DNA of 32,953 nucleotides from Chloroflexota bacterium (GTDB lineage: Bacteria; Chloroflexota; Anaerolineae; J102), in the NCBI GenBank assembly GCA_013152585.1, contig JAADGC010000114.1, positions 1 through 32,953 of the forward strand, read 5' to 3'. A program made the position numbers and the translations under genes. The notes beneath the pieces were generated by a model. The model made no database searches. It saw only the letters and a program-made list of their open reading frames with translations, and had not been told where the DNA came from. Within the stretch, counting starts at the first letter, position 1. Every line of letters begins with the position of its first letter. Positions 15,222 to 27,637 of the stretch are shown here, one piece after another.

Positions 15222-17036
15222 GTGCCGCTTTCTTCTCTCTGGAGGCGTTTGAACACGCCCGTCCAACAACTGATCAGCTTGCTGCTTTTTGCGCTGCTGC
15301 TGTTTGTTTTCATAATCTCCCTTAGCGTGGTGGTTATGCAGCGCGTTCAGACCTGCATGGACAGTGATCTTTATAACGAGGGGTTATCATTGCGTAGTTG
15401 GTTTGCAGACGAAGTTTATTATATGAGGGGGGAAGCGCGTCTGCTTGCAGAGTCTGAATCCTTACATGACTTGCTGGCCTTGCATGATGAGACGAAGCTT
15501 CGGTACTTGATGTCTCTCTATCAGACTACACACCACGCCGATGGCATCTATCTGATTACCGATACTCCCGATATATTTACCTCATCATCCACGCCTTCAC
15601 TCGATAAAGAGACTATTCTGGGACTCGAATTGGTCAGGATGGGATTTAACGGCCAGATTTTCGCTGAGATGATCACGGTTAATGAGCGAATCTGGCTCAT
15701 GTCTGTGGCCCCGCACATGACACCGGAAGGCGTCATAGACGCGGTGTTTCTCATCACCCGTGAAGTCGATGCCGAATTTTTGGAGACATTGGCTGGTCGC
15801 TTGCATAAGGCGATCGTCTTAACGGACGGAACGGTGAAAGTCCAATCGCAGTTGGGTGAGATGCCCGATGGGGTTATTGATTCACCTGCTCAGATATTGG
15901 AGAACCAAAGCAATGATCTGATGCAACCTTACACGGTTCGCTTCAATGGCATGACTTATCGCATGTTGGCGATGCCATTAATGACCACCCATTCCAGCTC
16001 CTATGCCTTCGTCCTGGTCAAAAACGCGGAGATCATGGTCGACACGCAGCGGACGATCATACGATGGGGAGCGCTGTTCAGTCTTATCATCATCATTCTC
16101 CTTTTGGCCCTGGTTCAATTCCATGTCGTCGAGATATTTCGCCCCTTGCGCGAGTTGGTGCGATCCACCCAACGGATTGCCGCGGGCGAGTTGGATGTGC
16201 CGCTGGAGCCGTCAGGCGTAGCGGAAGTCTACGAATTGGCGACACATTTCGAGGAGATGCGCTCGCGGCTGCTGGAGCAGATGGAGCAGGAGCGTTCTGT
16301 GAGCGAGCTTCTCGAAGCGGAGGTTCAGGAAAAATCATTGACCCTGGATGATATGTGTCGAATCCGTGAACGGCATCTGACCCAACTCATTTCTTCACAA
16401 GAAGAAGAACGTCGCCGGGTCTCACGTGAATTGCATGATGAGACCAGTCAGGAACTGGCCAACATTATCGTCCGCCTGGGCACCCTGGCTCGGATAGTGG
16501 ATGATGAAGGCACCCTGGAACAGATACAGCAACTGCGTTCGGAGGCCGCGAAGGCGTTGGAAGGCGTGAATCGCATTGTCATGGATTTACGGCCCGGGCT
16601 GCTGGATGAATACGGCCTGGTGCCCGCGGTACAGTGGTACTCGAACGCCCGCCTGGAAGCACAGGGCATTCGCGTAAAAATGAAGGTGAAGGAAACGCCC
16701 AGGGAGTTTTCCCCTCATGCGCAGGCCAGCATCTATCGCATGGTGCAGGAGGCGATCAACAACATCACCCAACACGCCCAGGCCAGCGAGGTTCTTATCC
16801 GCTTCGATTGGCTGGATGAGCAGTTGCGAATCGAGATCCAGGATGATGGTCGCGGTTTCGAAGCGCAAAATGCCGGCAAAGACATAAGCGGACATTATGG
16901 CCTGCTCGGGATCCGAGAGCGCGCCTCTCTTTTGAATGGCTCTTTGGAGATTCATTCATCGCCGGGGAACGGCACACATCTGATTATTCAGATACCTTAC
17001 GCCCTGAACATTGCGAGGGAAAATGGCCAGGATTAA
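15222..17036 (+). CDS. NarX-type sensor histidine kinase
   Basis: This 604-residue membrane kinase has two membrane segments (about residues 14-38 and 283-305) that bracket an extracytoplasmic sensor region of about 245 residues, which may be Cache-like. A HAMP linker (PLRELVRSTQRIAAGELDVPLEP) and a coiled coil follow. The HisKA_3 box EERRRVSRELHDETSQ contains the phosphoacceptor H405. The ATPase domain shows QEAINNITQHAQA and DDGRGFE, with GLLGIRERA. The gene begins with GTG at 15222, preceded by GAGGA at about 9 nt. It overlaps the response regulator gene by 14 bp, and the two form a cognate pair. The signal is unknown; location suggests redox state or an electron acceptor. Confidence 0.92.
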   Translation: MPLSSLWRRLNTPVQQLISLLLFALLLFVFIISLSVVVMQRVQTCMDSDLYNEGLSLRSWFADEVYYMRGEARLLAESESLHDLLALHDETKLRYLMSLYQTTHHADGIYLITDTPDIFTSSSTPSLDKETILGLELVRMGFNGQIFAEMITVNERIWLMSVAPHMTPEGVIDAVFLITREVDAEFLETLAGRLHKAIVLTDGTVKVQSQLGEMPDGVIDSPAQILENQSNDLMQPYTVRFNGMTYRMLAMPLMTTHSSSYAFVLVKNAEIMVDTQRTIIRWGALFSLIIIILLLALVQFHVVEIFRPLRELVRSTQRIAAGELDVPLEPSGVAEVYELATHFEEMRSRLLEQMEQERSVSELLEAEVQEKSLTLDDMCRIRERHLTQLISSQEEERRRVSRELHDETSQELANIIVRLGTLARIVDDEGTLEQIQQLRSEAAKALEGVNRIVMDLRPGLLDEYGLVPAVQWYSNARLEAQGIRVKMKVKETPREFSPHAQASIYRMVQEAINNITQHAQASEVLIRFDWLDEQLRIEIQDDGRGFEAQNAGKDISGHYGLLGIRERASLLNGSLEIHSSPGNGTHLIIQIPYALNIARENGQD

Positions 17037-17676
17037 AGTGTTGCTCGTTGATGACCACGCCATCCTCCGGGCTGGACTTCGATCCCTCCTGGCCACGTAT
17101 GATGACATCGAAGTGGTGGGTGAGGCGTCAAATGGCGAGGAGGCCATACAAAAAGCGCGCGAGCTGAAGCCCGACGTCATCGTCATGGATGTGATGATGC
17201 CCGGGAAAAACGGCCTTATCGCCACACGATACATTTTGGAAGAAAACCCCGATATGCGTATTCTCATGCTGACCCAATATGGCAATAAGGAATATGTTTT
17301 GCCCCTGCTGGAGGCAGGCGTTGGCGGATATGTGCTCAAACAAGCGGCAGACACCGATTTCGTCAAGGGCATCCGCGCAGTCTATGAAGGAAACTCCTAT
17401 CTCTACCCGCCCATCGCCAAGTTGGTGCTCGATGGCTTGATGGCAGGAGAGGATGCCGCTGATCCCGAGCGGCATCTTTCACCCCGCGAGCGTCAGGTGC
17501 TGATCCTGGTGGCTCAGGGCTACACCAACAACGAGATCGCCGAGATTTTGCATATCAGTCCCAAGACGGTGGATGTGCACCGCACCCGCATGATGAACAA
17601 GCTTGATCTGCACAATGTGGCGAAGATCGTCTGCTATGCCGTACGGCGCCACCTGATCGATCCATATGGGGATTGA
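17023..17676 (+). CDS. NarL/LuxR-family response regulator
   Basis: This 217-residue protein has a receiver domain with an intact acidic pair (D10, D11), phosphoacceptor D56 in VIVMDVMMPG, Thr in MLTQ and Lys in GGYVLKQA. The C-terminal helix-turn-helix reads LSPRERQVLILVAQGYTNNEIAEILHIS and KTVDVHRTRMMNKL. The ATG at 17023 has GAGGG at 17015-17019; a TTG at 17011 is less likely. It is translationally coupled to the kinase. A 7-2-7 inverted repeat at 17873-17888 is a plausible binding site, which would place the cytochrome genes under its control. Confidence 0.93.
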   Translation: MARIKVLLVDDHAILRAGLRSLLATYDDIEVVGEASNGEEAIQKARELKPDVIVMDVMMPGKNGLIATRYILEENPDMRILMLTQYGNKEYVLPLLEAGVGGYVLKQAADTDFVKGIRAVYEGNSYLYPPIAKLVLDGLMAGEDAADPERHLSPRERQVLILVAQGYTNNEIAEILHISPKTVDVHRTRMMNKLDLHNVAKIVCYAVRRHLIDPYGD

Positions 17677-17872
17677 TGGGATTGGGGTCTTCATGATGAT
17701 GTGAGGAGTTATACAAAACAGAGGAATCTAACTTTCAAAGTATTTCGACTCATTTCTTTATCCTTCTGGCGTTAGTGGTTCGCTGTTTTTCGAAAGAACT
17801 GCGATGGAAAAAAGCCCTGGGTTTGGCGCCAAGGCCTGACCCCTTGTGGATAGGGGATTAAAGACGCACAGG

Positions 17873-17888
17873 TAGGGTATATACCTTA
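17873..17888. promoter_or_regulatory. NarL-like 7-2-7 operator
   Basis: TAGGGTA and TACCTTA are inverted heptamers separated by TA, with seven of eight base pairs symmetric. NarL-type regulators bind head-to-head heptamers with a 2-bp gap, and the inner GTA/TAC triplets here fit that pattern. The outer bases do not match the E. coli consensus. The centre lies about 44 bp before the start predicted from the -10 at 17912-17917, a usual position for an activator. Confidence 0.5.
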
Positions 17889-17911
17889 TTTAATTGGACG
17901 CAGGGTTGTGT

Positions 17912-17917
17912 TACAAT
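17912..17917 (+). promoter_or_regulatory. Probable -10 element of the cytochrome operon promoter
   Basis: TACAAT at 17912-17917 matches five of six -10 positions. No good -35 lies 16-18 bp upstream (the bases there are TTTAAT), and TTGGAC at 17894-17899 is only 12 bp away. A poor -35 with an adjacent operator suggests activator-dependent transcription. The rest of the 17677-18006 spacer shows no gene. Confidence 0.45.
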
Positions 17918-18006
17918 ATTCACAGACTGAAAGCACACAACTCAGAATGCGTCATTGCACCTTGAGTTAGATGGCGGCCCACAAGCCCCACAACGCCTGT
18001 CGAAAT

Positions 18007-18474
18007 ATGAAGGATACCACCGTGCTGATCGCCAGCAAGTCCCCCACCATTAGCGCCGAAATCGAAAATCGGCTCGCTGCCAACGACGCTATACGCGTGA
18101 TAGGAACTGCCAAGGCGAACGAGGATATCCCCGTGATGACGAGACATTTGCTACCCGATATATTAGTGATCCACGCCCCCAGTTGTGGCGAACCGCACCA
18201 GGAACTACTTTCCCGACTCATGCGAATTCAACCAGACTTGAAGATTCTGGCTCTGGAATGTTCACCGGAACATATCCGTTCATGTTTCATAAAACTGGCC
18301 GCCTGGGGACTCCGGGGATGTATTTGCAAATGGCAGGACTCGACCGAACTCATCGACGCTATTTACACAGTGGGCAACGGCGATTTCTATTTTTGTCCGG
18401 TGGCCAGCCATGCGTTGCTGGATGCGTACCGCCACATGATCCATCATCCTGTTGGAGAGGAGGCACGAGCGTAA
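18007..18474 (+). CDS. Degenerate receiver-domain protein without DNA-binding domain
   Basis: This 155-residue protein aligns along its length with the receiver of the NarL-type regulator at 17023. The pair begins VLLVDDHA against TVLIASKS, and PDVIVMDV against PDILVIHA. The acidic pair is replaced by Ala-Ser, the phosphoacceptor Asp by H56, and the conserved Thr by Glu; only the switch Lys (ICK) remains. It cannot be phosphorylated in the normal way and has no helix-turn-helix. It has several cysteines (SC, EC, SC, GCIC, FC). It probably binds another signalling protein. An in-frame ATG at 17971 would add 12 residues. Neither start has a good ribosome binding site. Confidence 0.75.
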   Translation: MKDTTVLIASKSPTISAEIENRLAANDAIRVIGTAKANEDIPVMTRHLLPDILVIHAPSCGEPHQELLSRLMRIQPDLKILALECSPEHIRSCFIKLAAWGLRGCICKWQDSTELIDAIYTVGNGDFYFCPVASHALLDAYRHMIHHPVGEEARA

Positions 18475-20224: not shown

Positions 20225-21205
20225 ATGTCCACTACAAACCATTCTCTGCCAGAAAAAGACCTTCTGAGCACACGTAATATTCGTCGAGCGATCATCACTG
20301 TTGGGGTGCTGGTGATCGTCGTTATTGGTGCCTTCAGCGCCTACTACTATTGGGATCGCTTTCATCCCCGCGGCGATGTCTCTCCCGCCGAAATGACCGT
20401 TCAGGCGGCAGAGCAGGCAGTCAAGGAGAATCCGCAAGACCCAGAAATGCACCTCAATCTGGCTCAGGTTTACTATGAAAGCCGCATGTTCCCAAAAGCG
20501 CTCGATCAAGCGAATCAAGTACTTAACGTTTCTCCTGAGGACGCAGGTGCACTTTTGATTGCCGGTCTGTCGCAAGTCCACTTGGAGCAACTGACTGAAG
20601 CCATCCCTTTGCTCGAAAAATTTATCGATTTACGCAAGGATGAGCCTACAGCCAAAGCAGATATGATCCTACAGACGGCCTACTACTTTGTCGGCGAAAG
20701 CTATATGGAGCTGGGACAAGGCGCAAACGCGATCCCGCCCCTGGAGTCGGCGTTGGAGATCACGCCTACCGATGCCGATGCGCTCTACCAACTGGCCTTG
20801 GCGCAACAATCACTCGGCCAGTTTGAAACCGCGTTGACCTACTATCACAAAGCCGTTCGTCTGGTTCCGGACTTCACCGAAGCCTATCAGGGAATGGTCG
20901 AAAGCTACACTGCCTTGGATAAGCCGGGATACGTCGAGTACGCCCAAGGGATGCAAGCCTTTGGGATGAAGGACTTCGAGTCAGCGAAGTCCCATCTCCT
21001 GAATGCTGTTCAATCCTTGCCTGAGTTCTCCCCGGCCCTTCTTGGATTGGGCTTGACCTACGAAAAGCTGGGTGATCTCAACGCCGCCATGGATGTTCTC
21101 CAGCAAGCAGTCGCTCTCGATCCCCATGATTTCGCTGCCCAGCAAACGCTCGGGCGAGTTCAGGCCGGCCTGTCTGCTTTGGAATCACAGGAAACATCAC
21201 AATGA
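20225..21205 (+). CDS. Membrane-anchored TPR protein
   Basis: This 326-residue protein has one N-terminal membrane segment (about residues 21-42), then about seven tetratricopeptide repeats facing outward, for example PEMHLNLAQVYYESRMFPKALDQANQVL and ADALYQLALAQQSLGQFETALTYYHKAVRL. The ATG at 20225 follows AAGGAGGGGG; the open frame reaching upstream to 19934 is a shadow of the cytochrome gene. It lies between a multihaem cytochrome and an NHL propeller gene and overlaps the latter by four bases (ATGA). TPR proteins often scaffold c-type cytochrome maturation or assembly, which is the most likely role here. It is not a recognised CcmI or NrfG. Confidence 0.82.
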   Translation: MSTTNHSLPEKDLLSTRNIRRAIITVGVLVIVVIGAFSAYYYWDRFHPRGDVSPAEMTVQAAEQAVKENPQDPEMHLNLAQVYYESRMFPKALDQANQVLNVSPEDAGALLIAGLSQVHLEQLTEAIPLLEKFIDLRKDEPTAKADMILQTAYYFVGESYMELGQGANAIPPLESALEITPTDADALYQLALAQQSLGQFETALTYYHKAVRLVPDFTEAYQGMVESYTALDKPGYVEYAQGMQAFGMKDFESAKSHLLNAVQSLPEFSPALLGLGLTYEKLGDLNAAMDVLQQAVALDPHDFAAQQTLGRVQAGLSALESQETSQ

Positions 21206-22392
21206 GTGCCCCCTTGAACCCTACACCGCAGCCCAAACCCAGAAAAGAAGAAAAGCGTAGACGAAAACTCATGTTAGCCGTGCTGTCCGGACTATTACTA
21301 GTTCTCATTTCTGTTAGCGCCATTTTCGCCTCTTACCTGAATCAACCGGAGCCATTGCCCGAACTCCTACCGTTACAGGTAGCAGTCAACTATCCGCCTC
21401 ACTACCTCTTTTCCATTTACGGGGTGGACGGCCCCATCGGCGTGGCCTTGTCTCCCAATGGGGACCGAATCTACGTCACGGAGACACAGGGAGATCGGAT
21501 GATCAAGATGTTCGCTTCCGACGGCAATCTCCTGGGCTCCTTTTCCATTCCTGGCGTTGCGCCGGGCGAACGTTCCCCCGTCTATATTGCTACCGACTCG
21601 AGCGGTCGCGTGTATGTGACAGATCGATTGCAACACGCCATCATTGTCTTCGATAAAGATGGCGGCTATCTCGATACCATTCTCAGTCCCACTCTGACAC
21701 TCAGCGAATACGTCTCCAAGCATACGGGCACGGTCCCTAAACCCGGCTCGTTTGCTTACAACATCTTCGGCGAAGATGTCTCTTATCAAGATGCCGCAGG
21801 TAACGAGCAGACGTTACCCAGACCCGATTATGCCGGTTGGGCTCCGCTTGGCATCCGTTTCGACACAAAGGATCAGATGATACTGACCGACGTGACCGAA
21901 GGTCACAACTCGGTGCGAGTGGTTCCGGCCAGCGTCACGATGAGTTCCGACTGGCTGAATTTCGATCTCTCTGCCCTCCAATTCGGTATCTCCGGCCAAG
22001 GCAACGGGCAACTCCTGTTTCCCAACGCCGCCGTGGCAGATTCTCAGGGCAGAATCATTATTTCTGATGGCAACAATGGGCGCCTCTCGGTCTGGAATGA
22101 CCAAGGTGGCTTTCTTTTTCACTTTGGTTCCGGAAACGGTGATGGCGCGCTAAGCTTACCGCGCGGCATGGCCATCGACGGCCGGGATCGCCTGCACGTT
22201 GTGGATGCAGTGGGTCAGGATGTCAAAGTTTACGACTTCTCTGGCCCCGAACCTAGTTTCCTTTTTTCTTTCGGCGCCATGGGCGACCTAAATAGTCAGT
22301 TTAATTACCCGAATGACATCGCTGTAGATGTCAGCGGACGCCTGTACATCGCTGATCGAGAGAATAACCGCATCCAAGTCTGGTCTTATTAG
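21202..22392 (+). CDS. Membrane-anchored NHL-repeat beta-propeller protein
   Basis: This 396-residue protein has a highly basic N-terminus (about residues 10-22), one membrane segment (about 23-44) and then NHL repeats. Examples are PIGVALSPNGDRIYVTETQGDRMIKMFASDG, LPRGMAIDGRDRLHVVDAVGQDVKVYD and YPNDIAVDVSGRLYIADRENNRIQVW; about six blades are expected. An insertion of about 60 residues lies between the second and third clear blades. The start codon overlaps the TPR gene stop, so the two are coupled. NHL proteins accompany multihaem cytochrome genes in several metal-reducing bacteria, so a role in folding, docking or assembly of secreted cytochromes is plausible but unproven. Confidence 0.85.
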   Translation: MSAPLNPTPQPKPRKEEKRRRKLMLAVLSGLLLVLISVSAIFASYLNQPEPLPELLPLQVAVNYPPHYLFSIYGVDGPIGVALSPNGDRIYVTETQGDRMIKMFASDGNLLGSFSIPGVAPGERSPVYIATDSSGRVYVTDRLQHAIIVFDKDGGYLDTILSPTLTLSEYVSKHTGTVPKPGSFAYNIFGEDVSYQDAAGNEQTLPRPDYAGWAPLGIRFDTKDQMILTDVTEGHNSVRVVPASVTMSSDWLNFDLSALQFGISGQGNGQLLFPNAAVADSQGRIIISDGNNGRLSVWNDQGGFLFHFGSGNGDGALSLPRGMAIDGRDRLHVVDAVGQDVKVYDFSGPEPSFLFSFGAMGDLNSQFNYPNDIAVDVSGRLYIADRENNRIQVWSY

Positions 22393-22478: not shown

Positions 22479-22589
22479 GAAGATTTATTACCAGTTGCTT
22501 ATGACATGATTTCATCAGCTATGTCGTTAATCTTATCTCACCTCTGGCGTTCCCCACCAGGACGGAAAAAAGGAAAGGAGAGAAATCTC

Positions 22590-23468
22590 ATGAAAAAACT
22601 ACTCTTAGTATCACTGCTGATTGTCGCTCTGCTGCTTGTTGCAAACATAGCCTCAGCCAATGGTGGTCCCCACGGTGACTATACAGCTACTACCGATGCT
22701 TGCGCCGGCTGTCACCGTGCTCACACGGCGCAAGGCGGAAAGCTGCTCGTGGCTAGCAGTTCATACAACCTCTGTGTTTCTTGCCACGGTTCCACTGCTA
22801 CTGGCGCAAACACCAACGTCGAAGACGGTAAATTTGTTTCCGGTAGAGGCGGGAATGAAGGTACACTCACGACTAATAACGTTGACCTTCTCGGTGGCGG
22901 TTTCGCCACTTACAAGGGCGTAGCAGTCACGTCTACCCACAATCCCACCGGCACCGAAACCGGCGCCTGGGGCGCCGGCGGCCTGCGTGGTGTGACTGGC
23001 ACCATCGATGCCCTCGACTGCGCCTCCTGCCACGATCCTCATGGCTCCGGCAACTACCGCCTCCTCAAGACAACGATCAACGGGAAAGGCGTAGCCGTGA
23101 CACAGAGTGATGAGGGCGCGGCCAAGGATTACGGTACGGAAAACTGGGCCAGCGACCAGAGCAACGTCTGCGGCGCTTGCCACGATCCTTATCAGCATGC
23201 GTCCAACTACCCTGGCGATCCCACTTTCACTCACCCTGTGGATCAGACGACCGGTTACACGCCCAGCTTCACCGATGGCGCTGGAACCACCGTGACGGTG
23301 CCACTGGCGGGCGCCAACGACAACTTCCTTGTCTGCCAGACCTGCCATCTGCCCCACGGTACGTCAGTGTCAATGTCTGGGTACGCTGCTAGCGCAGGCC
23401 CCGCAGGCGACAGCGCCCTGCTGCGCGAGAACAATCGCGGCGTGTGTCAAGCTTGCCACAAGAAGTAG
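22590..23468 (+). CDS. Secreted hexahaem cytochrome c, OmcS-like
   Basis: This 292-residue protein has a signal peptide (residues 1-23, cleavage near ASA-NGG) and six CXXCH motifs at 38, 62, 144, 194, 249 and 286. Motif order and context parallel Geobacter OmcS: CAGCHRAH first, CASCHDPHG third, CGACH fourth with a following His-Pro, CQTCHLPH fifth and CQACHKK at the very C-terminus. Seven further histidines (28, 45, 117, 151, 203, 215, 256) can serve as distal ligands. H45, in CHRAH, corresponds to OmcS H16, which ligates a haem of the next subunit in the filament. The start at 22590 has AAGGAG at 22575-22580; the frame upstream to 22506 is not needed. It may polymerise into an extracellular wire. 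Confidence 0.85.
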   Translation: MKKLLLVSLLIVALLLVANIASANGGPHGDYTATTDACAGCHRAHTAQGGKLLVASSSYNLCVSCHGSTATGANTNVEDGKFVSGRGGNEGTLTTNNVDLLGGGFATYKGVAVTSTHNPTGTETGAWGAGGLRGVTGTIDALDCASCHDPHGSGNYRLLKTTINGKGVAVTQSDEGAAKDYGTENWASDQSNVCGACHDPYQHASNYPGDPTFTHPVDQTTGYTPSFTDGAGTTVTVPLAGANDNFLVCQTCHLPHGTSVSMSGYAASAGPAGDSALLRENNRGVCQACHKK

Positions 23469-23561: not shown

Positions 23562-24569
23562 ATGAAAGTTAGGTATCTTTTCATCATTGCCGCCGCCATT
23601 CTTGTCTTAATGACTTCTGCACCCATTTACGCAGACAATGGCCCTCACGGCAATTACACCGCCACAACCGACGCTTGCGCCGGTTGTCATCGCGCCCACA
23701 CCGCACAGGGGGAGGAGTTGCTCGTGGCCAACACGAGCTATGACCTGTGCCTCACCTGCCACGGAGCCGCCGGCAGCGGTGCAGACACCAATGTTGCCGA
23801 CGGTGTTTACATGCAACGGGACAACGTCGTGGAGTCTCCTGACGAGGGCGTCGTCAATCGTGGGTTGAGGGGAGGCGGTTTCCTCAATGCCCGCATGGAC
23901 ACGAGCTGGAGCTTCACAGTCACTTCCGCCTCCGTCACATCTTCTCATCTCTGGAATGATAGCAGCGGTGTAGTCTGGGGTAGCGGCAGCATCGGCTCTG
24001 GCCCGGGCAGCAGCATCAAACTTTCCTGCGTCTCATGCCACGATCCCCATGGAGGCGTCGGAGCGAACAACAGCGCCACCTACCGCATCCTTCGCTCTAC
24101 ACCCGCTGGCTCGGGCAACGGTACGACGGTTGTATCGGACGAAAACAACAAGAATTACACGATCGATGACGGTTCTGGTAAATACTTCGGTCAGACCTAT
24201 GACACGACACTCTTCAGTGATATGGCATACTGGTGCACCGAATGTCACGACCGTTATCTCGCACCCGCTGACAGCGGCCACACCGACTCTGGCGACTCGG
24301 TTTTCGCGTATCGCCACATCTCTGTAGGGAGTGGCTGTGGCTGTCATAACCTGCATGGCGGCCCTCCGCCCACCGGCAATCCCACCTATGCTCACAAACC
24401 TGTCTCCTGCCTGACCTGCCACGTCGCTCACGGTACATCAGCCACCATGTATGGCAATGCCGGAAGCGTGCCCTGGCCCGATGGCTCCACCCTTCCCAGT
24501 GGCGATGATCGAAGCGCCCTCCTGCGCGTGGATAACCGGGGGACATGCCAATTGTGCCATAATAAATGA
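23562..24569 (+). CDS. Secreted hexahaem cytochrome c, OmcS-like, with an extra CXCH motif
   Basis: This 335-residue paralogue of the preceding cytochrome shares its N-terminus (GPHGNYTATTDACAGCHRAHTAQ) and its C-terminus (SALLRVDNRGTCQLCHNK). It has a signal peptide (cleavage near IYA-DNG) and CXXCH motifs at 39, 63, 156, 225, 283 and 329. Between the fourth and fifth lies C259-G-C261-H262, a CXCH sequence followed by NLHGG, which is absent from the paralogue. It has nine further histidines, more than six haems need. The CHRAH histidine (H46) is conserved. A longer insertion with Ser/Trp-rich sequence lies between the second and third motifs. It overlaps the next gene by four bases. Confidence 0.85.
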   Translation: MKVRYLFIIAAAILVLMTSAPIYADNGPHGNYTATTDACAGCHRAHTAQGEELLVANTSYDLCLTCHGAAGSGADTNVADGVYMQRDNVVESPDEGVVNRGLRGGGFLNARMDTSWSFTVTSASVTSSHLWNDSSGVVWGSGSIGSGPGSSIKLSCVSCHDPHGGVGANNSATYRILRSTPAGSGNGTTVVSDENNKNYTIDDGSGKYFGQTYDTTLFSDMAYWCTECHDRYLAPADSGHTDSGDSVFAYRHISVGSGCGCHNLHGGPPPTGNPTYAHKPVSCLTCHVAHGTSATMYGNAGSVPWPDGSTLPSGDDRSALLRVDNRGTCQLCHNK

Positions 24570-27500
24570 TAACGCGTTCGTACAGACCGATTAGAATATC
24601 GCGATTAACCCTTGCGGTCAGGATAGCGCTGGCCGTTTTTATCGGTTGTTTAGGGGTTGTTCTGTTGATCGTGCCCGGCATCTGGGCGGCTCCCCTCCAA
24701 CAAGGGGGGGGAGGTCCCCACCACGGCAACTTCAGCGCCACCACCGACGCCTGCGCCAAATGTCACCGCGCCCACACCGCCGACAAAAAGTATTTACTTA
24801 TCCGTGGTGGGGGGGGGGGAATGAAGCTTGGTACAACGCAACGCGTTCTCGATGTCAATCGGTTCTGTAATTCCTGCCATAACGGCACAGGGGCGTCCAT
24901 CACCACGCCCATCTCCACGCATAGCAATTCGGATTTCGGCAACCGCTCCGGCTCCGACTTCCAACTGAAATGCACCAGTTGCCATGACTCCCACGATTCG
25001 TCCAATCTGTTCATCATCAGAAGCAATGTTTTGCTAAGCAATGGCATTACTGTCGGCCCCATCAGCTTTACCGCCCGCACCGGCGCCAATTCCTTCGACG
25101 ATGGCAAAAGCCCCGTCAGCACGCGGATTTGCGTGGCCTGCCATGAGGCCAACGGAGGGATGAGGCACACGGGTGGGGCAGAGCATGAGGGAAATTTCGA
25201 CTTCACGGGGGAAGATTGCTCGACGTGCCATCCCCACAGTGCAGATAGCTTAGCGGAGAGCAGGGACGGTTTTATGATCGTCCCCAATGTGCGGGAATTG
25301 CTCATCGCCCGGGCTCAGGTGGATTTGCAGGTATCGCAGATCCCTTCAACCCACCAGCTCGTCGCCGGCGAGCCCTTCACTTATACCATCACTATCCTCA
25401 ACAACGGCCCACAGGACGCCTGGGGTGTAGTCATCTCCGATACATTGCCCGCAAGCATGGAGGTGTTATCCATCACGCCCCCAGAGGGTGGCAATTGCAC
25501 CATCGCGGCGGTCATCCGCTGCGAGCTGGGCGATATCCAGCATGACAAGAGCGTCGCCCTGTTCCTTTCGGTTTTTCCCGCATCCGATCTCTACGGGCTT
25601 GTCCCCAATCGGGTGGAAGTCAGCGCCTTGCAGGCCGATCCGGCGTCCGGGAACAACGTTTCGATCTCCAATGACGCCATCATTCACCATGCCGATCTCA
25701 GCGTCGATCAGATCGCCACGCCCTCCTCGGTGCTGGCCGGAGAGCCATTGTCCTACACCCTCACCATCGCCAATCATGGTCCCTCGGTGGCCACGCGCCT
25801 GATAGTGCAGGACACACTGCCCGATGGCGTCGATTTCCTCTCGGCCACGGCCTCCCAGGGCCAGTGCACCGAAGCGCAGGGCATCGTCACCTGCGATCTC
25901 GGCGTCCTGAGGATTTACGGAGAGGCCACCGTCGTTATCAACGTAACGGCCGGTACGGTCAATGGCACCGCAGCCAATGTCGCCACCGTCACGGGGGACG
26001 ACTATGATCCCTACACGTCGAATAATGTAACCAACGCCAGCAGCGTTATCGCCTGGACCGTAGATCTGTCGGTGACACAGAGCGCCCAGTCCTTGTCTGT
26101 AGAGACAGGCCGGGCCGTGACTTATACCCTCACCGCCCGCAATGCCGGGCCGCTGGACGCGGCCAATGCTGTGCTCACAGACAGCTACCCCGCAGGCGTC
26201 ACCCTGATCAGCGTCACTGCCAGTCAGGGCACTTGCGCGGATGAAGGCGATCAGGTGACTTGTCGCCTGGGAGAACTTGCCGCTGGTGCCGAAGCGGTCG
26301 TATCGTTGGCTATTCGGGTGCCGGAGGTATCGGGCGACATCATCAACGAAGCCAGCATCGCGGCCGATCCGATGGACTCTGATCCGGGCAATAATACTTC
26401 GGCGCTGACAGTCTCGGTGTACGACGGGCCCGATCTGTCCGTTGAGATAGTGACCGAGCCCGCAATCATTGCACCGGACGAGGAGCTAAAATACACTATC
26501 CCGATCACCAACAATGGCCCCAGCCCCGCCACCGGCGTCATCCTGGTGGACACCATGCCCGAGGGGACGACCCTCGTCACGGCCACTTCCACCAAAGGCC
26601 CTTGCTATGTAAATCAGGGCAAGATCAGTTGTGAGATCGGCGACATAGGCGGGCAGCAAGGCGAAACCGTCACCATCGTCGTCGCTGTCCCCGTGGATGG
26701 CAGCGCCACCCTGGTGAATACCGCCACAGTCAGCGTCAATGAAATCGATCCTGATCTGGAGAATAACACCGCCATCGCTACGACGCAGGTCGTAGCCCAG
26801 GCCGATCTGACCATTAGCACAGAAGGGTGGTCCGAGATCACGTCATTGAAACGGATGGTTGCCTACACGATCACTGTCAGCAACCTCGGACCTTCGCCTG
26901 CCACCAATGTGACCATGACCGACATCCTGTCCCCCGAGTCCCTCTTCGATTCGGTGCAGGCGAGCCAGGGCGTTTGTGAAGAGAAAGAGGGCGAGATTAT
27001 CTGCGCCCTGGGCGAGATGGCGAAGGACGCCCGCGCCGTGGTAGTCATCTACACCGAGGTGCAGCAAGAGACGGCATCGTTGGTCAACACCGCCTTCGTG
27101 GTGTCCGATGTTTCTGATCCCAATGACCACAACAATACCGCCATGGTGATCATCCCCACCTTGCCGTTGACTCCGACGTCCACCATCACACCCACGGTCA
27201 CTGCCACCATCACACCCACGGTCACTGCCACCATCACACCCACGGTCACTGCCACCATCACACCCACGGCCACCATCACGCCCACGGCCACCGCCACCAT
27301 CACGCCCACGGCCACTGCCACCATTACCCCCACACCAACGCCTCTTTCTACTGCGACGCCCACGCCTACCCCCGTGCCGACGCCCTCGTCCACGCCTACC
27401 ACCGGCCCCGCGCCCGTCAGCACCCCAACACCAACACCAACACCCACACCCACGCCCACCTCTACCGTAACGCCATCTCCCACCGCCACACCCACGCCTT

Positions 27501-27637
27501 TGCCAACGCCCACCCTCATACCCATCGCCACGTCAACGCCCACGCCCAGGGGACCCCACTCCGACCGCCACGCCAACCCCCGCGCCCGCGGCCGCCAATC
27601 GAAACTTTCATGGGGTATTATCGCCACTATAATGTGA
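24566..27637 (+). CDS. Pentahaem cytochrome-DUF11 fusion surface protein
   Basis: This 1,023-residue protein begins with a signal peptide (to about residue 42) and a cytochrome domain homologous to the two upstream proteins (GNFSATTDACAKCHRAHTA). It has five CXXCH motifs: CAKCH, CNSCH, CTSCH, CVACH and CSTCH, within about residues 63-225. Five DUF11 repeats follow (about residues 252-860), each starting like ADLSVDQIATPS and containing YTLTIANHGPS. A Thr/Pro-rich stalk encoded by a 24-bp minisatellite comes next. No LPXTG signal or C-terminal membrane segment is seen. The last 30 residues turn abruptly basic, probably because of a frameshift near 27549-27552. A G11 tract (24809-24819) lies in the cytochrome domain. 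It is probably an outermost cap or anchor of the electron conduit. Confidence 0.82.
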   Translation: MITRSYRPIRISRLTLAVRIALAVFIGCLGVVLLIVPGIWAAPLQQGGGGPHHGNFSATTDACAKCHRAHTADKKYLLIRGGGGGMKLGTTQRVLDVNRFCNSCHNGTGASITTPISTHSNSDFGNRSGSDFQLKCTSCHDSHDSSNLFIIRSNVLLSNGITVGPISFTARTGANSFDDGKSPVSTRICVACHEANGGMRHTGGAEHEGNFDFTGEDCSTCHPHSADSLAESRDGFMIVPNVRELLIARAQVDLQVSQIPSTHQLVAGEPFTYTITILNNGPQDAWGVVISDTLPASMEVLSITPPEGGNCTIAAVIRCELGDIQHDKSVALFLSVFPASDLYGLVPNRVEVSALQADPASGNNVSISNDAIIHHADLSVDQIATPSSVLAGEPLSYTLTIANHGPSVATRLIVQDTLPDGVDFLSATASQGQCTEAQGIVTCDLGVLRIYGEATVVINVTAGTVNGTAANVATVTGDDYDPYTSNNVTNASSVIAWTVDLSVTQSAQSLSVETGRAVTYTLTARNAGPLDAANAVLTDSYPAGVTLISVTASQGTCADEGDQVTCRLGELAAGAEAVVSLAIRVPEVSGDIINEASIAADPMDSDPGNNTSALTVSVYDGPDLSVEIVTEPAIIAPDEELKYTIPITNNGPSPATGVILVDTMPEGTTLVTATSTKGPCYVNQGKISCEIGDIGGQQGETVTIVVAVPVDGSATLVNTATVSVNEIDPDLENNTAIATTQVVAQADLTISTEGWSEITSLKRMVAYTITVSNLGPSPATNVTMTDILSPESLFDSVQASQGVCEEKEGEIICALGEMAKDARAVVVIYTEVQQETASLVNTAFVVSDVSDPNDHNNTAMVIIPTLPLTPTSTITPTVTATITPTVTATITPTVTATITPTATITPTATATITPTATATITPTPTPLSTATPTPTPVPTPSSTPTTGPAPVSTPTPTPTPTPTPTSTVTPSPTATPTPLPTPTLIPIATSTPTPRGPHSDRHANPRARGRQSKLSWGIIATIM
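24704..24711 (+). repeat. G8 homopolymer in the cytochrome-DUF11 gene
   Basis: Eight consecutive G encode part of a Gly-rich stretch just after the signal peptide. It is the first of two G-runs in this gene and would shift the frame early if it slipped. Confidence 0.8.
24809..24819 (+). repeat. G11 homopolymer in the cytochrome-DUF11 gene
   Basis: Eleven consecutive G encode glycines in the first cytochrome segment, between the first and second haem motifs. The frame is intact on both sides at this length, since haem motif context continues. Tracts of this length are prone to slipped-strand mispairing, so the gene could be switched on and off; assembly error must also be considered. Confidence 0.8.
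27188..27325 (+). repeat. 24-bp coding minisatellite (Thr/Pro stalk)
   Basis: Three identical 24-bp copies start at 27188, 27212 and 27236. An 18-bp shortened copy (27260-27277) and two variant copies (27278-27301, 27302-27325) follow. Each 24-bp unit encodes the eight residues of a TPTVTATI-type repeat, so copy-number change keeps the frame and alters stalk length. Less regular Thr/Pro coding continues to about 27545. Confidence 0.9.

Follow-up and report, generated by a model that had tools for sequence, protein, structure and literature searches.

A stand-alone NarL-like pseudo-receiver encoded between a two-component pair and a multihaem cytochrome cluster in Anaerolineae

Bacterial pseudo-receiver or aspartate-less receiver (ALR) domains, in which the phosphoacceptor Asp is replaced, are the closest described counterparts of the protein reported here, which shares with them the receiver fold and, presumably, a phosphorylation-independent mode of action (PMC12632262, PMC4395418). 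Arg, Lys and His together occupy the Asp position in 4% of ALRs (PMC4395418), and the switching of bacterial pseudo-receivers has been described as a mystery (PMC12632262). In Clostridioides difficile, the CmrRST operon encodes an atypical regulator in addition to a kinase and a regulator, and pseudo-receiver action inside an otherwise normal two-component system has been proposed for it; a heterodimer of the regulators WhiI and BldM has also been reported (PMC12632262). RitR of Streptococcus pneumoniae is a redox-sensing aspartate-less regulator (PMC5965902).

As in CmrRST, the locus described here encodes a third receiver-like protein together with an otherwise normal kinase-regulator pair. 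It was identified in the window, i.e. the whole stretch of 32,953 nucleotides that was analysed, which is contig C78 of a 3.8-Mb genome that is 96% complete; its features are collected in Table 1. In contrast with CmrT, which is an OmpR-family regulator, the protein has no DNA-binding domain and its gene has its own promoter-like sequence. It differs from other pseudo-receivers and ALRs in having lost all five catalytic positions, in lacking an output domain and in falling, in the window copy, below Pfam detection. A conserved Cys at the end of α-5/linker is shared with RitR, the segment that contains Cys130 being comparable to that of RitR Cys128, although RitR carries a DNA-binding domain and the present protein is stand-alone and sits beside a kinase-regulator pair; RitR-type redox dimerisation may occur here. 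The receivers of RcsB, VraR, DesR and NarL provide the closest folds and sequences, NarL-type linker helix included, but unlike them the pseudo-receiver has neither phosphorylation residues nor a helix-turn-helix (HTH), and the combination of phosphorylatable receiver and LuxR/GerE HTH that characterises NarL/FixJ regulators is absent from it.

Table 1. Positions in the window of the kinase-regulator pair, the promoter-like elements, the pseudo-receiver and the downstream electron-transfer genes
Feature	Position	Strand	Evidence and remarks
Sensor histidine kinase, 604 aa	15222..17036	+	Pfam: large N-terminal sensor region, HAMP, HisKA_3, HATPase_c
NarL-type response regulator	17023..17676	+	Pfam, alignment: canonical receiver (DD, D, T, K) and GerE HTH
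Upstream box ATAGGGG	17850..17856	+	17 nt before dyad in 6/6 loci; TTAGTGG in the most distant (G003)
Operator-like dyad AGGGTATATACCTTAT (degenerate window copy)	17874..17889	+	Constant spacing in 6/6 loci
-10-like promoter element GTGTTACAATATTCACA	17908..17924	+	Constant distance from dyad in 6/6 loci
Pseudo-receiver, stand-alone	18007..18474	+	155 aa; lacks phosphorylation site and HTH; His56, Cys107, Cys130 invariant
Multihaem cytochrome, NapC/NirT (NrfH-like) N-terminus, 523 aa	18631..20202	+	Pfam, NCBIfam; syntenic in G004, G009, G011
TPR protein	20225..21205	+	Pfam, synteny
NHL-repeat beta-propeller protein	21202..22392	+	Pfam, synteny
Paired-CXXCH multihaem cytochrome	22506..23468	+	Pfam, NCBIfam
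Second paired-CXXCH multihaem cytochrome	23562..24569	+	NCBIfam
CXXCH and DUF11-repeat large protein	24566..27637	+	

An initial annotation had described the protein as a receiver in which the phosphoacceptor Asp is replaced by His. Homology to the receiver of the adjacent regulator (26% identity, E 1.5e-7 in a whole-genome search) and to NarL (orthologue profile matching 1a04 with E 1.4e-9 over residues 4-142) bears this out, and His56 occupies the Asp position in 6/6 orthologues. The alignment also upholds the replacement of the switch Thr by Glu84, while the acidic pair, previously read as Ala-Ser, was one residue off: regulator ‘LLVDDH’ aligns with pseudo-receiver ‘LIASKS’ in alignments with both the adjacent receiver and NarL, which places Ser10-Lys11 at the pair. 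The statement that only the catalytic Lys remains is correct for the window genome and fails for the family, where the residue aligned with Lys108 is K, R, E, Q, N and E across the six orthologues. Judged from this alignment, Lys108 is an accident of the window genome and all five catalytic positions are lost family-wide. With no Asp and no metal-binding pair, the sequence indicates that conventional phosphorylation by the kinase is ruled out. The absence of an output domain and the presence of several Cys (residues 60, 85, 93, 105, 107 and 130) had been recognised correctly. Domain software would miss this protein, since the window copy had zero Pfam family matches even at E 1; PF00072 matches two of the six family members, with a best E of 7e-4, below the gathering score. 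A weak match of one member to the B12-binding domain (PF02310, E 0.008) was rejected, the DxHxxG motif being absent; the invariant His of the family comes after β-3 in the model and HxxG is absent from the alignment.

The AlphaFold2 model of the pseudo-receiver (pLDDT 89.1, pTM 0.84) comprises the five strands and the helices of a receiver, followed by a NarL-type linker helix extending from residue 131 to 145, where the architecture ends. A helix-turn-helix/GerE output domain was sought in the protein and none was found, the chain terminating after α-6. Foldseek searches with the model retrieved receivers with TM scores of up to 0.87 (normalised by target), and the closest structures are the receivers of RcsB, VraR, DesR, LiaR and EvgA, with NarL-family members the best in the PDB. 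The alignment of the six orthologues contains 27 invariant columns. His56, Cys107 and Cys130 are retained down to 32% identity, while the remaining Cys vary. Cys130 directly follows α-5 in 6/6 orthologues and, from receiver topology, should lie at the opposite end of the sheet from His56, such that His56, Cys107 and Cys130 would not constitute one site. No haem motif was identified in the pseudo-receiver.

The pseudo-receiver is carried by 6 of the 20 genomes of the GTDB family, comprising the window genome and 5 of its 19 relatives, with identities of 32-72% and all frames intact. The family profile scores the six orthologues at 225-273 bits and the next receiver at 74. No further carrier was found among the 396 genomes searched in the class, and a sample of 400 genomes from the phylum recovered just two of the same six. 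The gene order kinase-regulator-pseudo-receiver is maintained in 6/6 loci, with the cytochrome, TPR and NHL genes next wherever the contig continues; in G013 the contig ends right after the pseudo-receiver, and in G010 it is cut before the pseudo-receiver position with the cytochrome cluster kept, making absence there uncertain. The orthologue search proposed in the initial annotation, with decay as the adverse outcome, thus returned undamaged copies beside the same kinase-regulator pair in six genomes.

Because synonymous sites are saturated for most pairs, codon-position counts, combined with a random-substitution null, were used in place of dN/dS. Nucleotide differences in the closest pair are 0.28/0.10/0.50 by codon position, and its amino-acid identity is 0.72, whereas 300 random-substitution trials reached at most 0.53; all other tested pairs likewise exceeded the null, the lowest with 0.32 against 0.27. 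None of the six copies contains an internal stop codon. The pseudo-receiver is a real third component, conserved and under protein-level selection. Pairwise identity reaches 0.70 in β-1, 0.70 in the linker and 0.64 in α-6, with β-3 and β-5 also among the best-conserved segments, and falls to 0.27 in α-2 and 0.34 in α-4. Conservation of the linker and α-6 with no HTH behind them argues for a partner-binding role. The orthologues form one well-supported clade in the tree (100/99), which is not joined, at weak support, with the adjacent regulator. Recent tandem duplication of that regulator was considered as an origin and set aside on the same, weakly supported, separation.

The neighbouring kinase was detected, at E<1e-60, in exactly the six pseudo-receiver genomes among the 20 of the family. 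As the kinase co-occurs with the pseudo-receiver and the cytochrome cluster is also found without it, the pseudo-receiver belongs to this type of kinase-regulator pair. The window regulator is 69-88% identical to the other five, against 32-72% for the pseudo-receiver, which evolves faster than the regulator. The α-1 helices of the regulators display an invariant Gly (LRAGLRSLL in the window), replaced by Glu or Lys in five of the six pseudo-receivers.

The downstream genes constitute an electron-transfer cluster that is perhaps extracellular. The last product listed, of 1023 residues, combines a paired-CXXCH haem region with five DUF11 repeats and is a possible surface-attached cytochrome. In G009 and G003 the end of the pseudo-receiver gene and the start of the gene after it share 4 nt, the second gene encoding cytochrome c7 (then cytochrome b561) in G009 and the TPR protein in G003, an arrangement that places the pseudo-receiver among the first cistrons of the cytochrome operon. 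At the G009 locus (L034 6870-9078) two further genes, for a cytochrome c7-type protein and for a cytochrome b561, separate the pseudo-receiver from the 523-aa cytochrome; the window has neither, and G003 has no 523-aa cytochrome at this locus. The cytochrome cluster is distributed more widely in the class, at times behind other NarL-type pairs and without the pseudo-receiver. In another family of the class (L125 10443-12102), two similar NarL-type regulators are arranged in tandem before the same cytochrome/TPR/NHL cluster.

The gap separating regulator and pseudo-receiver, of about 210-720 nt, contains the same arrangement of elements in a fixed register in 6/6 loci: the box ATAGGGG, 17 nt, the dyad AAGGTNNNNACCTTAT, 18 nt and GTGTTACRATATTCACA. 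The dyad reads AAGGTGATCACCTTAT in three relatives and is perfect in G003, G004 and G013 (TAAGGTG-AT-CACCTTA, with 7-2-7 symmetry), the window and G009 copies presenting one deviation each; the GTGTTACRATATTCACA element varies in G003 and G013. The stretch from the dyad to the -10-like element is hardly conserved in sequence and is conserved in length. With up to three mismatches, the 20-bp form of the dyad occurs twice in the window against 0.03 occurrences expected. In a 1-mismatch scan of seven genomes, the sole exact dyad outside this locus lies within a coding region (G003 C41), and a regulon-wide operator in the carrier genomes was rejected on this distribution. A generic promoter scan at this spot gave nothing above chance, and the promoter assignment derives from the comparison between genomes. 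A 7-2-7 symmetry is of the kind used by NarL-family dimers, and, with TACRAT taken as the -10 hexamer, the dyad would be centred at about -42, where a class II activator would sit. Symmetry, position and co-occurrence suggest that the adjacent regulator binds the dyad, and the pseudo-receiver is most likely the first gene of a separate transcript controlled by that regulator. The conserved dyad and -10-like element upstream indicate that it probably heads the multihaem cytochrome operon.

A pseudo-receiver without an output domain must act by contact or as a sensor. An inducible, phosphorylation-independent third component that modulates its own kinase-regulator pair, possibly thiol-gated, is favoured by the strict co-occurrence with the pair, by the operator-like dyad and by the conservation of the linker tail; we adopt this reading tentatively and at somewhat less than an even chance. 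The phosphorylated NarL-type regulator would bind the predicted operator dyad as a dimer and activate the promoter, so that pseudo-receiver and cytochrome cluster would be made together. The pseudo-receiver would then contact its partners via the receiver surface and the conserved linker/α-6 tail, not by phosphotransfer. The most likely partner would be the regulator, the dimer of which may be spoiled by an HTH-less subunit, or the kinase, and binding would tune or shut down the response as feedback, possibly gated by the redox state of Cys130 and/or Cys107. Most simply, the protein would be an HTH-less partner of the regulator that gives negative feedback. The early proposal that it acts on kinase or regulator gains support from co-occurrence and from the operator-like dyad, except in its form as a canonical α-1 decoy, which the α-1 residues weaken. 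Against modulation of the pair, the faster evolution of the pseudo-receiver relative to the regulator means less constraint than expected of a tight interface, the protein is missing from class relatives with the same cytochrome cluster, some of which have other NarL-type pairs, and the tree places it, with weak support, apart from the adjacent regulator.

Ligand or redox sensing by the pseudo-receiver, also raised initially, is possible from its sequence. As a direct sensor, which we consider an unlikely though serious alternative, it would use Cys130 as a thiol redox switch or have a ligand site for quinone, metal or haem near His56/Cys107, and a change in oligomeric state would report the condition of the respiratory chain to its partners. 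The respiratory gene context and the invariance of His56, Cys107 and Cys130, not shared by the other Cys, are consistent with this, as are the dimerisation of RitR via its linker Cys at the end of α-5 (PMC5965902) and the binding of quinones by the CikA and KaiA pseudo-receivers (PMC12632262). However, among 27 invariant columns two Cys and one His are unremarkable alone, the presumed distance of Cys130 from His56 argues against a single site, the haem motif is absent and the model contains no ligand.

The locus also houses the kinase, and the structures closest to the model include the DesR receiver from DesK-DesR complexes; a protein with the receiver fold might occupy the kinase via the canonical docking surface (α-1 and the β-5/α-5 loop) and block phosphotransfer. 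This kinase decoy is made less likely, and in our estimate improbable, by an α-1 that does not mimic the regulator, its invariant Gly being Glu or Lys in 5/6 pseudo-receivers; mimicry of the docking face was not seen. Service to the cytochrome operon, e.g. in the assembly or regulation of quinol-oxidising cytochromes from the cytoplasm, would agree with the position of the gene before that operon and with the start overlaps in G009 and G003, but it is quite improbable given that the pseudo-receiver tracks the kinase (6/6) and not the cytochrome cluster, which class genomes outside the family have alone, and that the 523-aa cytochrome is missing from the G003 locus. Finally, the missing output domain, lost catalytic residues and faster evolution might suggest a duplicated regulator that has shed its HTH and is now decaying, but this reading is refuted, and retains hardly any probability, in view of six intact frames over deep divergence, protein-level selection, the gene's own conserved promoter architecture and the single well-supported clade.

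A second family of degenerate receivers, linked to cytochrome oxidase subunit II (COX2), was identified in 22 of 298 class genomes, with the order regulator-degenerate receiver-COX2 at many loci. In G001 (L019 2197-2583) a 128-aa degenerate receiver lies between a NarL-type regulator and COX2, and in four genomes (L141, L146, L148, L155) the frame continues into COX2 without a stop. The copies of genus g7 share a box upstream and have TATAAT immediately in front of the ATG, apparently a leaderless promoter. Most members keep the Asp, while the acidic pair and the Lys are lost; the model is of moderate quality (pLDDT 71). In some copies the matched stretch is interrupted by stops, as at L152 827-1195 with one TGA and one TAA, which may reflect a true C-terminus or local decay. 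The tree puts the two families in separate places, and the recurrence of degenerate receivers beside respiratory genes suggests a recurring theme without implying that the two families have homologous functions.

A search for papers treating response regulators, multihaem electron transfer and Anaerolineae together found none, and the literature retrieved with both ‘pseudo-receiver’ and ‘cytochrome c oxidase’ was, by title and abstract, unrelated. Pseudo-receivers themselves are known; what is new here is a stand-alone NarL-like pseudo-receiver that has lost all catalytic positions, escapes Pfam detection, displays His in place of Asp and probably leads a respiratory operon, preceded by a conserved operator-like dyad. 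Pseudo-receivers can escape standard domain searches, and their number may be underestimated. Here the pseudo-receiver is small and conserved, its neighbours are constant, an operator is predicted in front of it and the respiratory target is defined, which makes the feedback, heterodimer and redox models directly testable. As a speculation that we rate as rather unlikely, HTH-less degenerate receivers in Anaerolineae may be a recurrent third component that ties NarL-type systems to respiratory chains, one family leading a multihaem electron-transfer operon and the other preceding COX2 or, in some genomes, sharing its frame, and reading the state of electron transfer back onto the regulator without phosphate.
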